From Syntrophomonadaceae bacterium (lineage in GTDB: Bacteria > Bacillota > Syntrophomonadia > Syntrophomonadales > DTU052): a DNA stretch of 64,000 bases. The translations under genes and the position numbers were made by a program. The stretch spans positions 62,001-126,000 of the forward strand of contig JAAYEQ010000025.1 in the NCBI GenBank assembly GCA_012728655.1, written 5' to 3'. Positions 1-52,623 of the stretch are shown here, in pieces. The notes below the pieces were generated by a model, which saw only the letters and a list, made by a program, of their open reading frames with translations, did not search any database and had not been told where the DNA came from. The stretch's first letter is position 1; every line of letters starts with the position of its first letter.

Positions 1-818
1 TCCGGGGGTATGCTTAAATAGTCGGAGGAAAAAGTCCCGACAAAAGCGGTGGGATACTCCACCAGGAAGGTTACCTCTTCCAGGAGTTCATCATCCTCCA
101 GCACCGTTCCCCCCTGGTTCTCAGCTTCCCTTCTCACCTGTTCCCAGATCCACTCCCGGCGTTCCTGGACGTCAACTATGACGTAAGCCTGGCGCAGTTT
201 TTCGATATACTCGTTAATTCCTCCAACCTTTATGGCCTCGGGATGAAGAAAGCGGTGACCGTAGGTTAGGTCTCCGGATTTTACGTTTTCAATTTCCAGC
301 GGTATCACTTCACCGCCGAAAATAGCCACTATCCAGCGTATAGGCCTTATGAACCGAAGTTCGGAATACCCCCAACGCATGGAACGGGAAAACGGCATCC
401 CGGTAATGATCCGGCGCAGCACCTCCGGCAGGACCTGAATAGTCGCCTGCCCCTCTTCTCTTATGGAAGCAAAGATGTATTTGTGTCCCCCCACTTCCCG
501 GGTGACCAGTTCGTCCAGGGAAACTCCCTGGCTCCGGGCAAAACCCTCAACTGCTTTGGTCGGTCGGCCTTCAGCGTCAAAAGCCTTGTCGGCCCTGGGA
601 CCTCTTACCTCGCGCACGGACTCCGCCTGTTTCTCCGCCAGCCCCTCCACCATCAGGGTCAGACGCCGGGGCGTGCACCCGATGCGCAGGTTGTCATATG
701 ATAACCGGGCTGCACTCAGCTCCGATTCCGCCAGCTTCCTTAAATCATCGATTGCTTCCGGCAAAAGCAAAGCCGGCATTTCCTCGGTTCCGATTTCCAG
801 CAGCATCTCTTTACTCAT
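1..818 (-). CDS. glyS: Glycyl-tRNA synthetase beta subunit (3' part cut by window edge)
   Basis: This is the N-terminal ~272 residues of the beta subunit of the bacterial (alpha2beta2-type) glycyl-tRNA synthetase, which charges tRNA-Gly in the cytoplasm. The translation opens with a typical [16 protein letters not shown] start and continues with the family's RPIRWI and YGHRF segments. The ATG at 818 overlaps the glyQ stop by 8 bases (ATGAGTAA), so the two subunits are translationally coupled and share the T-box leader upstream of glyQ. The gene runs off the left edge, so the C-terminal anticodon-binding part is not visible. Identity is near certain. Confidence 0.95.
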
Positions 819-1737
819 CGATTTTCCCCCCTTTATCCAATCCCAGCCGTTCTCTCTGCGCCGCATCCTTCAGCAGGGGATAACCCAACCGCTCACGCTG
901 GGCCAGATATTCCTTGGCAACGGAGCGGGCCAGGTTGCGAATCCGTCCGATATAGGCGGTTCTCTCGGTAACGCTGATGGCTCCCCGTGCATCCAGGAGA
1001 TTGAACAGGTGGGAGCACTTCAATACATAGTCGTATGCCGGTTGCACCAATCGCTTTTCCAGTACCCGCAGGGCCTCCCGTTCGCTTAGTTGGAACATGG
1101 TCAAGAGGGTCTCAATATCGGCCACATTGAAGTTGTAGTGGGAGTAGTCTACCTCACCCTGGTGGTGGATATCACCGTAAGTTATCCCATCAATCCACTC
1201 GATGTCGAAAACGCTCTCCTTGTTTTGGATATACATGGCCAGTCTTTCAATTCCATAAGTTATTTCCGCACACACGGGGTAACAATCAAACCCTCCGCAC
1301 TGCTGGAAGTAGGTGAACTGGGTCACCTCCATCCCGTCCAGCCATACCTCCCAGCCCAGGCCCCAGGCCCCAAGGGTGGGAGATTCCCAGTTGTCCTCCA
1401 CCAGCCTGATATCGTGCTTTTCCGGTTCAATCCCCAACCGGCGCAGGCTGTCCAGGTACAGTTCCAGCACATCATCCGGTGACGGTTTCAGGATCACCTG
1501 ATACTGGTAGTAGTGCTGCAGGCGATTGGGGTTCTCCCCATAACGGCCGTCGGTCGGACGCCGCGACGGTTCGACATAGGCCACGTTCCAGGGTTCGGGA
1601 CCCAAAGCGCGCAGGAAAGTCGCTGGATTCATAGTTCCCGCACCTTTTTCCACATCATAGGGCTGCTGAATTATACACCCCTTCTCGCTCCAGTATTTTT
1701 CCAGGGTTAGAATTACATCTTGAAATGTTAACGCCAA
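811..1737 (-). CDS. glyQ: Glycyl-tRNA synthetase alpha subunit
   Basis: Catalytic alpha subunit of the two-subunit glycyl-tRNA synthetase, 308 residues, the usual family length. The family signature region near the N-terminus ([20 protein letters not shown], and [20 protein letters not shown]) is intact. The open frame continues upstream to 1986, but that extension is T-box RNA, not protein. I place the start at the TTG at 1737, six bases after a strong Shine-Dalgarno sequence (GAGGGAGG), giving [20 protein letters not shown], which matches where family members begin. It lies upstream of and overlaps glyS. Expression is controlled by the glycine T-box immediately upstream. Confidence 0.96.
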
Positions 1738-1822
1738 TTCGATTCCTCCCTCGAAAAAATATAAGAAATAAGGTTGTTCCCCGGTTGAGACGCCGCCCGG
1801 CTTATTATTAATTAATTGTTCC

Positions 1823-2052
1823 CCATAACAAATAAGCTCGTTCCCGTAGCAGGGACGAGCTTGGCCCGCGGTTCCACCCTGATTGGCGTAACGCCCTCTC
1901 TTTAACCGGGTTTTACTAACCTTTTCAGGCTTTCCTCCCGCTGCTCCAGAGTGCCTTTCAGCCTGGTCCTTCTGCCGGGTTTCCACCCCTCCCGGCTCTC
2001 TGCAAGAAGGTATTCCACGCCTACTCTCTCTTTCATCACAGGTATGAATTTT
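1823..2052 (-). promoter_or_regulatory. Glycine T-box riboswitch upstream of glyQS
   Basis: The leader RNA carries the conserved T-box sequence AGGGTGGAACCGCGG (1866–1880 on the minus strand) and a downstream terminator hairpin (arms 1834–1844 and 1851–1862, followed by a T-rich run). In stem I the context GAAA-GGC-A places a GGC glycine specifier codon at 1953–1955, matching the position in known glyQS leaders. Uncharged tRNA-Gly would stabilise the antiterminator and allow glyQS transcription. The specifier and T-box are seen directly; the folding is inferred from the family. Confidence 0.93.
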
Positions 2053-49420: not shown

Positions 49421-49639
49421 CAGGCTTCGTCACCTGCCACTCTCCGGCGACGGCATTTTCGCTCGCGGCATTCTTTTATGCCTGGCGCCTCATTTTAATA
49501 TTCCTGTATCCGCTGAGAGTTTATGGAATTACTTCTTGATTCAACATTCAACAGACCGAAACCAACTTCCTCTTTTCTCCTCTTGAATATTACCGGGTGA
49601 CAATTTCACAGAACTATAATACCACTTGCGCCAGCTAGG

Positions 49640-49669
49640 TTGACTTTTTGGTCAAAGGTGTCATATAAT
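49640..49669 (+). promoter_or_regulatory. Promoter of the leuS leader
   Basis: TTGACT (49640–49645) and TATAAT (49664–49669) are spaced by 18 bases, about 20 bases before T-box stem I. I find no comparable promoter between here and the tRNA: a TATAAT lies at 49851–49856, but without a -35 element. Confidence 0.75.
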
Positions 49670-49675
49670 GTGCAA

Positions 49676-50017
49676 TGTCAATTGTAGATTGTGGCGAGGA
49701 ACCGGAGCAGTAAACCTGGTGATCCTTAAAGAGAGCCGCCGGTTGGTGCGAGGCGGCAGGTAGCGGGTTGAATCTCGCCGGGGAGCCGTGCCGGTGAAGG
49801 AAATGGGTTTTGTTCTGGAGGATTTCGTATAGCCGGCACCGTTGATCACGTTATAATCTTAAGGGGGCAAAACATGGGGCTGTGGCGCAGAGGGAGCGCG
49901 CTTCCTTGGCATGGAAGAGGCCGCGGGTTCGATTCCCGCCAGCTCCACCAGATATTTGCCAAGTAAGGTGGTACCGCGGGAGACCTCTCTCGTCCTTAGG
50001 GATGGAGAGGTTTTTTG
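49676..50017 (+). promoter_or_regulatory. Leucine T-box riboswitch interrupted by a tRNA gene
   Basis: Stem I includes the AG-bulge/apical region AGAGAGCCGCCGGTTGGTGC and the specifier context GAAT-CTC, giving a CTC leucine codon at 49774–49776. The conserved T-box sequence AAGGTGGTACCGCGG is at 49965–49979. The terminator hairpin CCTCTC…GAGAGG (49984–50010) ends in six Ts. Between the stem I–III part and the antiterminator lies a complete tRNA-Ala (49876–49950). The flanks GGCAAA (49866–49871) and TTTGCC (49955–49960) can pair and would put the tRNA on its own stem. Confidence 0.88.
49876..49950 (+). tRNA. tRNA-Ala(GGC)
   Basis: Seventy-five bases fold as a full cloverleaf: acceptor GGGGCTG/CAGCTCC with the G3·U70 pair that marks alanine tRNAs, D stem GCGC/GCGC with a short seven-base loop, anticodon stem CTTCC/GGAAG with loop TTGGCAT (anticodon GGC), T stem GCGGG/CCCGC with TTCGATT, and an encoded CCA end. 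It lies inside the leuS T-box leader, so it is probably excised from that transcript by RNase P and 3' processing. Confidence 0.95.
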
Positions 50018-50148
50018 TTAGCAGCACCTGCTTTGTTATGTCTCACACCAGTATAGCAACCAATTGAAACAGGTTTGCTACCATTCATATATCTCAGATC
50101 TCAATCCATGGAAGGTAACAATACAAACTTTAAACAAGGAGGATGGCT

Positions 50149-52623
50149 GTGGAGAGCCGATACGATTTCAGGAGAATTGAAGCCAAGTGGCAGCGTTATT
50201 GGGAAGAGAATGGCTTCTATATCGTGGAGGAAGACCCGTATAAACCGAAGTATTACAACCTGGAGATGTTTCCCTATCCTTCCGGAGCCCTGCATATGGG
50301 GCATGTCAGGAATTACGCGATTGGGGATGTCGTAGCCCGTTTCAAAAGCATGCAGGGGTTCAATGTTTTACATCCCATGGGATGGGACGCATTCGGTTTG
50401 CCGGCAGAAAATGCAGCGATCAAGCATGGAATCCCTCCTGCCAAATGGACCTATGCCAATATAGACAACATGAGGCAACAGCTCAAATCACTGGGTATAA
50501 GCTATGATTGGAACCGGGAGGTTACCACCTGCAGCCCCGATTACTATAAATTTACGCAGTGGCTTTTCCTGCAGCTTTATCACATGGGTCTGGCCTACAA
50601 GAGAGAAGCAGCCGTAAACTGGTGCCCGTCCTGCGCTACCGTTTTGGCAAATGAGCAGGTGGTGGACGGTGCCTGCGAGCGCTGTGAGACCGCAGTGGAA
50701 AAAAAGAATCTGGAACAGTGGTTTTTCAAGATCACCGATTACGCGGAGCGTCTCCTGAATGACCTGGACCGCCTTACCGGCTGGCCGGATAAGGTTAAGA
50801 CCATGCAGCGCAACTGGATTGGACGCAGTGAGGGCTGCGAGTTCAGTTTTACGGTAAAAGGTTCGGGCGAAAAGATCCCGGTGTTTACTACCCGTCCGGA
50901 TACGGTCTTCGGAGTAACTTACATGGTCCTGGCGCCCGAACACCCGCTGGTTAATACCCTGGTAGCAGGTACCGAATACGAAGCTAAGGTTCGTGAATTC
51001 GTGGAAAAGATGAAAAACCTGAGTGAGCAGGCCCGGACCTCAGCCGAGGCCGAAAAACTCGGAGTCTTTACCGGCAGGTACGCCATAAATCCGGTCAACG
51101 GCGAAGAAGTCCCTATATGGTTGGCCAACTACGTACTTATGGATTACGGTACCGGCGCGATCATGGCGGTTCCCGCCCATGATCAGCGGGACTTTGAGTT
51201 CGCCAAGAAGTACAACCTCGAAATCCGCGTAGTTATCCAAAACCCTGAAAATGAACTGCCGCTCGACGGGTCGTTGACTGAAGCCTATGTCGGGGACGGC
51301 GTAATGGTCAATTCCGGAAAATTCAACGGGCTTTCCGCCAAAGAGGGTCAAAGCGCCGTCATCAAGTTTATGGAAGCCAACAAGATAGGCCGGGGAGCGG
51401 TGAACTACCGGCTACGGGACTGGCTCATTTCCCGGCAGCGTTACTGGGGTGCGCCCATTCCCATTGTCTACTGCGACGAGTGCGGCATAGTTCCGGTTCC
51501 TTTCGAAGACCTTCCGGTTATCCTGCCGGAGGATGTCGAGTTCCGGCCTACCGGGGAGTCTCCGCTCAAATATGTGGATGAATTCGTCAAGACCGAATGT
51601 CCCAGTTGCGGCAAACCGGCCCGGCGGGAGACGGATACCATGGATACCTTCGTGTGTTCCTCCTGGTATTTCATGCGTTTCGCCAGCCCTCACGCAGCCA
51701 ACCGCCCGTTTCTCAAGCCGGCGGTAGACTACTGGATGCCGGTCGATCAGTACATTGGAGGAGTAGAACACGCCATTCTCCACCTGATGTATGCCCGTTT
51801 CTTTACCAAGGTGCTCTATGATGCCGGTATGCTATCCTGCGAGGAGCCGTTTACCAACCTTCTGACTCAGGGCATGGTTCTGAAAGACGGCGCCAAGATG
51901 TCCAAATCAAAAGGGAATGTGGTAAGCCCCGAGGATACGATTGAGAAGTACGGTGCTGATACCACCCGGCTTTTCATCCTGTTCGCTTCACCGCCGGAAC
52001 GTGACCTGGAATGGAGTGAACAGGGGGTTGAAGGCTGCCACCGCTTCCTCAACCGGGTATGGAGGCTGGTGGTTGATCTGGCTAAATGGCAGAAAGAGAC
52101 CAGTAATGCCGTCTCGGTATTGAGCACAAGCGATCGGGACCTGCGCTATAAGGTCCATTACACCATCCACAAGGTAACCGAAGATATTGAGAAGCGCTTC
52201 AATTTCAACACCGCTATCAGCGCTATTATGGAACTGGTCAATGCCATGTATCAGTACCGGGACAGCATGGGTAATAAAATGAATCCCCAGGTGGTAAAGG
52301 AAGCTCTGGACTCGCTGATCCTGCTTCTGGCACCGTTCGCCCCCCATATCGCCGAGGAATTGTGGGAAGGTACCGGACACCAGGGCAGCGTTCACCGGCA
52401 GCCGTGGCCGACCTGGGACGAGGCCGCCCTCGAGCGGAGTGAGATGGAAATAGTCATTCAGGTTAACGGCAAGGTAAGGGATCGTATCAGGGTCCCGGTG
52501 GACATCACCAAAGAGGACCTGGAAGAACTTGCTCTGACCCAAGTCAAGAAGAGCATCGGCAAGAAACATGTGGTCAGAGTGATTACCGTGCCCAGAAAAC
52601 TGGTTAATATCGTGGTCAAATGA
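50149..52623 (+). CDS. leuS: Leucyl-tRNA synthetase
   Basis: LeuRS (about 824 residues) charges tRNA-Leu. The class I motifs are SGALHMGH (HIGH) near the N-terminus and KMSKS in [13 protein letters not shown]. The CP1 editing domain, the zinc cysteines around [10 protein letters not shown] and CERC, and the C-terminal anticodon-binding and LeuRS-C domains are present. AAGGAGG touches the ATG at 50143, so I prefer the GTG at 50149, six bases downstream. It is controlled by the leucine T-box upstream. It is plus-strand, divergent from the oxidoreductase. Confidence 0.97.

Follow-up and report, generated by a model that had tools for sequence, protein, structure and literature searches.

A leuS leader in which stem III of a leucine T-box is capped by a tRNA-Ala(GGC) gene: a probable dual-function RNA found in three bacterial phyla

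In the leuS leader of a Syntrophomonadaceae bacterium, a complete tRNA-Ala(GGC) gene lies between the codon-reading and the switching part of a leucine T-box riboswitch. The composite recurs in three phyla, the stem that carries the tRNA covaries between them, no conserved promoter separates the tRNA from the upstream part of the leader, and in most of the scanned genomes the nested gene is the single copy found. With good confidence, such leaders can be regarded as dual-function RNAs, each a leucine T-box with its stem III capped by a functional tRNA-Ala(GGC) gene, and co-transcription of the two parts, excision and charging of the tRNA, and switching would be the corresponding events, as deduced from sequence.

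The window (the whole stretch of 64,000 nucleotides that was analysed) has all parts of the leader on its forward strand. A sigma-70-like promoter (TTGACT-18 nt-TATAAT, 49640–49669, 11 of 12 consensus matches), the sole such site that a promoter pattern scan yields within 49560–50142, precedes a T-box at 49688–50000 that matches the full Rfam model RF00230 (positions 1–219) with 122.2 bits, above the cut-off of 93 bits, and an E-value of 1.4e-26. As aligned to that model, stem I, with its AGUA and GGUUGGUG-type motifs, occupies 49688–49790 and includes the specifier codon CUC (Leu, 49774–49776) in the context GAA-U-CUC-G-CC; the stem II and stem IIA/B region follows at 49791–49853, ending in CGUUA (49849–49853). 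Next come the RRRNG motif AAGGG (49861–49865), directly 5′ of the stem III strand GGCAAA (49866–49871), then the tRNA-Ala(GGC) gene, 75 nt including an encoded CCA (49876–49950, by ARAGORN and Rfam), and the 3′ strand UUUGCC (49955–49960) with AA at 49961–49962. The antiterminator (49965–49999) carries the T-box motif GGUGGUACCGCG, with UGGU at 49969–49972, and its alternative is an intrinsic terminator at 49978–50016 (terminator piece −23.4 kcal/mol); the two share CUCUCGUCC and are thus mutually exclusive. The gene so regulated would be leuS, for leucyl-tRNA synthetase, at 50143–52623 (ORF, Pfam tRNA-synt_1, relatives). An earlier note, made from the letters alone, had read this order from promoter through stem I, CUC and tRNA to T-box and terminator, and each element is where it had been placed (ARAGORN, Rfam, promoter scan). 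In the Rfam alignment the hairpin that directly precedes the antiterminator has an insert of 81 nt, which contains the tRNA; against the Rfam tRNA model the latter scores 68 bits, and the cloverleaf, the GGC anticodon and the G3·U70 pair are all present. The specifier fits both the downstream leuS and the cognate tRNA-Leu(GAG) of the genome, whose ACCA end also matches the UGGU bulge. Another T-box in the window, on the reverse strand at 1848–2045 upstream of a glyQ-like ORF (811–1986, reverse strand), has an ordinary short stem III.

The element 5′-RRRNG-stem III-AA-3′ is conserved in T-boxes (PMC7778990), and AAGGG-GGCAAA...UUUGCC-AA of the window fits it. Read against that element, the GGCAAA/UUUGCC pair flanking the tRNA is the T-box's own stem III, with the tRNA in place of its loop; the short apical loop of the family model, a variable and non-essential feature, is absent. 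The suggestion that the flanking stem presents the tRNA as a side arm, and keeps the riboswitch halves close, is supported by covariation over 47 distinct stem pairs. With the strands anchored on the RRRNG and AA motifs, the 5′ and 3′ strands of one and the same locus pair at a mean of 5.1 of 6 positions, as against 2.6 when strands are swapped between genomes and 3.1 in the best of 300 permutations. Over the 47 distinct pairs 88.7% of cells are paired (64.0% in shuffles) and double changes number 78 (19.5 in shuffles), these being counts that ignore the kinship of the loci; sliding the register by one lowers pairing to 37–44%, and GC, AU, CG and UA all occur at the inner positions. Folding of the whole leader, T-box sequence included, gives stem III a probability of 0.09–0.18; an RNA ending at 49962 gives 0.95. 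Since full-leader folding does not recover it reliably, the case for stem III rests on the comparative evidence. On the tRNA side, the alanine identity pair G3·U70 is kept in all 86 nested loci checked while other acceptor pairs co-vary, as in GGGGCTG/CAGCTCC to GGGCCTG/CAGGTCC. To judge from these patterns, both T-box and tRNA are under selection.

The earlier note had proposed a search of relatives for tRNA genes inside T-box leaders, and this brought to light 116 distinct nested loci: 69 in Bacillota, 34 in Chloroflexota and 13 in Armatimonadota, the phyla being assigned from record titles or from the group in which a locus was searched for. In all 116 a tRNA gene stands between the position of stem I and the T-box motif, and it is always tRNA-Ala(GGC). 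Together with both Rfam E-values, this recurrence excludes chance. A first scan of 84,980 species genomes, with a pattern of a tRNA 3′ half followed by the T-box core, gave 28 stretches, 17 of them truly nested (Syntrophothermus-like Bacillota and many Chloroflexi), with tRNA-Ala(GGC) in every true case where the tRNA was readable. A looser pattern matched 57 of 151 relatives, most relatives being draft genomes, and a reversed-pattern control none of the 151. Two of the 57 matches (L044, L053) are due to chance; these and others such as L011, L019 and L028 were removed, either because ARAGORN gave no tRNA-Ala or because the T-box was absent. Conversely, some members escaped the pattern solely because their T-box reads ACCACG. 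All four scanned genomes of the window's genus have the nested arrangement, as do 43 of 63 members of its order by pattern and five more read directly. Matches were also obtained in 34 of 400 Chloroflexota genomes (about 24 true by sequence), in 18 of 43 genomes of Armatimonadota, the phylum of L033 (13 loci proved nested), and in 89 of 399 genomes of a Bacillota sample, of which only part was read by sequence. Presence throughout the genus, across the order and in two further phyla rules out a recent random insertion, which the earlier note had coupled with a dead T-box as an outcome that would undo its reading: the arrangement is of old standing and has been kept in three phyla.

The partners are as constant as the site. 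CUC is the specifier in 115 of the 116 loci (107 automatically, seven by eye, and one where an automatic CUU was a wrong match and the leader reads CUC); the exception, L228, has lost stem I. Nearly all have leuS downstream, in some cases with a small gene, such as a GNAT-like or phosphoesterase gene, in between. Such a GNAT-like ORF stands between nested Leu T-box and leuS in six Chloroflexota loci (L012, L013, L016, L024, L027, L113), and an 80-aa fragment of it had no Pfam match. In L045 the Leu T-box with its nested tRNA-Ala is upstream of an AMP-binding (acyl-CoA synthetase-like) gene, not leuS, and L099 and L189 have a second tRNA gene upstream of the nested leader. Of 20 further nested loci run against the Rfam T-box model, 10 have a full-length match above the cut-off, and the 14 nested Chloroflexota loci from the first scan all fall short of it; such leaders can escape standard annotation.

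Of 39 tRNA matches in the window's genome, which is 96% complete, 38 are outside the leader and none of these has a GGC anticodon; the only other Ala tRNA has CGC, and a pattern for GGC-anticodon tRNAs run over the genome has one real match, the nested copy itself. (Five Leu tRNAs are present, GAG among them.) With no other GGC copy found in so complete a genome, the nested gene very likely supplies the cell's tRNA-Ala(GGC). Nine Chloroflexota genomes that were checked likewise have a nested gene as their only convincing tRNA-Ala(GGC), and most of the genomes examined gave no second such gene.

In the mechanism proposed, one promoter would give a single transcript whose stem I reads tRNA-Leu(GAG); stem III would join the riboswitch halves, the tRNA-Ala protruding from it as an arm, and the 3′ end of tRNA-Leu would be tested by the UGGU bulge. 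If tRNA-Leu is charged, the T-box terminator would end transcription, leaving a short RNA that is in effect a tRNA-Ala precursor; if it is uncharged, there would be read-through into leuS, and tRNA-Ala would still be made. Because the tRNA precedes the terminator, terminated and read-through transcripts would both carry it, and tRNA-Leu charging would decide on leuS alone, the T-box terminator doubling as that of the tRNA-Ala gene. Once the decision has been made, the tRNA would be released by RNase P and 3′ processing, which would cut sensor from switch and leave the processed leuS mRNA with a structured 5′ end. RNase P cleavage ahead of the decision would disable the switch, so that kinetics matter; on this scheme cleavage must follow the decision. 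The consequences that the earlier note had drawn, namely a tRNA-Ala from every leader, a shared terminator and severance of sensor from switch by RNase P, accordingly keep the conditional form in which it gave them. The arrangement may be held in place because both products matter and a second tRNA-Ala(GGC) gene is mostly not found. Against a dual function, several relatives have lost one of the two parts, so that not every lineage needs the whole.

An alternative to a single transcription unit is that the tRNA gene has its own promoter and merely overlaps the leader, making two unrelated units. Free-standing tRNA-Ala(GGC) genes do occur in relatives, and a TATAAT is found at 49852–49857, 18 nt before the window's tRNA; however, it has no acceptable −35 box, and it consists of the CGUUA of the T-box together with the linker. 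A promoter-like site immediately precedes stem I in 42 of 55 nested Bacillota loci (18% in shuffles), whereas between specifier and tRNA such sites occur in four of the 55, three of these being close relatives, and in none of 30 Chloroflexota loci. In four loci (L042, L043, L244, L246) just 32 nt separate specifier from tRNA, a gap in which a promoter of the tRNA's own could not fit without reaching into stem I. A promoter directly before the tRNA had been named in the earlier note as what would speak against it, and no conserved one was found in these 55 and 30 loci or in the window at 49560–50142, which makes separate units very improbable. To see in the T-box a decaying remnant, used only as promoter and terminator of the tRNA gene, would accommodate the reduced forms dealt with below (stem I missing from L228, the T-box sensor from G100 and G105, and the riboswitch of G024 split), but is highly improbable in view of the full-length Rfam matches in the window and half of the 20 further loci, the conserved CUC, the covariation of stem III and the retained UGGN. 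A cis-acting nested tRNA, whose ACCA end would pair with the UGGU some 20 nt downstream, set the antiterminator and render the switch constitutive or alanine-sensing, gains some appeal from the complementarity of discriminator A73 plus CCA to UGGU in the window and most loci. However, the specifier stays Leu, the UGGN contact is normally made by a free tRNA 3′ end, and 14 of the 116 loci (12 of them Chloroflexota) encode no CCA, yet keep CUC and UGGN; mainly because of these 14, such a role is extremely doubtful.

A different proposition gives the tRNA-Ala arm an active role in the switch, whether as a delay of about 80 nt between sensing and switching, as a folding aid for stem III and the antiterminator, or by leucine-linked maturation of tRNA-Ala in which RNase P and the folded T-box compete. 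The fixed site at the tip of stem III, the fixed partners (Leu T-box and tRNA-Ala GGC) and the long conservation in three phyla are in keeping with it, as is the dinucleotide N(-2)N(-1) before the nested tRNA, which is GU in 50 of 69 Bacillota loci as compared with seven of 37 other tRNAs of the window's genome. GU at this position pairs with RCCA and slows RNase P (PMC9433436). However, the window's own nested tRNA has AU there, a fast dinucleotide, and the excess of GU, which may reflect shared ancestry, is only a hint of slowed RNase P; moreover, related families have ordinary leuS T-boxes that lack the tRNA and carry just a short loop on stem III. An active arm is thus considered unlikely. 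In its most developed form, folding of the nested tRNA and its excision by RNase P would be coupled to tRNA-Leu binding, such that leucine status would act on read-through into leuS and also on how much tRNA-Ala(GGC) is made or when, and this is slightly more doubtful still; if true, coupled excision would be a direct cross-link of two amino-acid supplies in one RNA. The dual-function leader, in which the tRNA is made whatever the state of the switch, is the preferred reading.

Related families include ordinary leuS T-boxes without a tRNA and leuS genes with neither T-box nor tRNA, and a LeuS tree intersperses the nested loci with relatives that have only a T-box or none, which requires at least 10 state changes; the tree does not tell many losses from transfers of the leader. 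As a single tRNA type, a single specifier and a single site are involved, repeated origin would be less likely than descent from a common ancestor with later losses or than a transfer of the leader. Several loci have less than the full set. Two (L133 of genome G105 and L135 of G100) have rsfS, promoter, tRNA-Ala(GGC), terminator and leuS with the T-box sensor absent, possibly a reduced form of the nested leader, and L228, though missing stem I, keeps stem III, tRNA and T-box. In G024 one contig has everything from stem I through the complete tRNA followed by an integrase-like N-terminus (L072, G024:C109:14900-16043), and on another (L170, G024:C41:1-3500) leuS is preceded by the T-box half and by the final 47 nt of the tRNA. 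The riboswitch has probably been split over the two contigs by an integrative element that used the nested tRNA as its site, the join itself being unseen. A locus of the nearest other genus (L169/L119, G004:C9), with only the 3′ part of the tRNA and the 3′ half of the T-box before leuS and a Phd-like antitoxin ORF upstream, resembles the split G024 locus.

Genes for tRNAs share transcripts with other functional elements elsewhere. Mixed tRNA-mRNA operons, among them E. coli metY-nusA-infB and the tufB tRNA operon, are transcribed as one RNA with a tRNA gene ahead of a protein gene and a terminator or attenuator separating the two. There the tRNA is beside the control element, whereas here it is inside a tRNA-sensing riboswitch, between sensor and switch. 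The tRNA-Ala and tRNA-Ile of rRNA operon spacers are cut out of a longer structured RNA, but, unlike the tRNA of the leuS leader, split no regulatory switch. In Alphaproteobacteria the tRNA-Sec gene is nested inside selB, and a coupling of processing and expression has been proposed (PMC8124441). This too is a complete tRNA gene within another functional element; however, the host is a protein-coding sequence and the tRNA belongs to the pathway of the host gene, while here the host is a riboswitch. Cutting sensor from switch is not alien to T-box leaders, given that in the S. aureus leaders TB-leuS, valS and serS RNase Y cuts between stem I and the T-box sequence (PMC4608709); here the tRNA would instead recruit RNase P and 3′ processing to the same stretch, with a stable product. 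With known leuS T-boxes (RF00230) the present leader shares stem I with CUC, stem III with RRRNG and AA, UGGU, the antiterminator/terminator pair and leuS downstream, but known ones have a short stem III loop where here there is a whole tRNA-Ala gene; neither the ordinary leuS T-boxes of related families nor the window's glyQS T-box has a nested tRNA. In open-access full texts no description of a tRNA gene nested in a T-box was found, and T-box surveys outside that scope may hold an earlier mention.

The occurrence of one and the same composite in Bacillota, Chloroflexota and Armatimonadota suggests either that it was inherited from a common ancestor or that the leuS leader was transferred as a whole, and it indicates that a peripheral riboswitch stem can host a whole second functional RNA over very long times. 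A stable product would come from an attenuated leader that is normally discarded, and the question is raised of how a switch that needs to be intact until its decision tolerates an RNase P site between its two parts. Inside a riboswitch for one tRNA stands the gene of another, the only copy found in the genome, and one leader transcript is probably both leucine sensor and source of a working tRNA.
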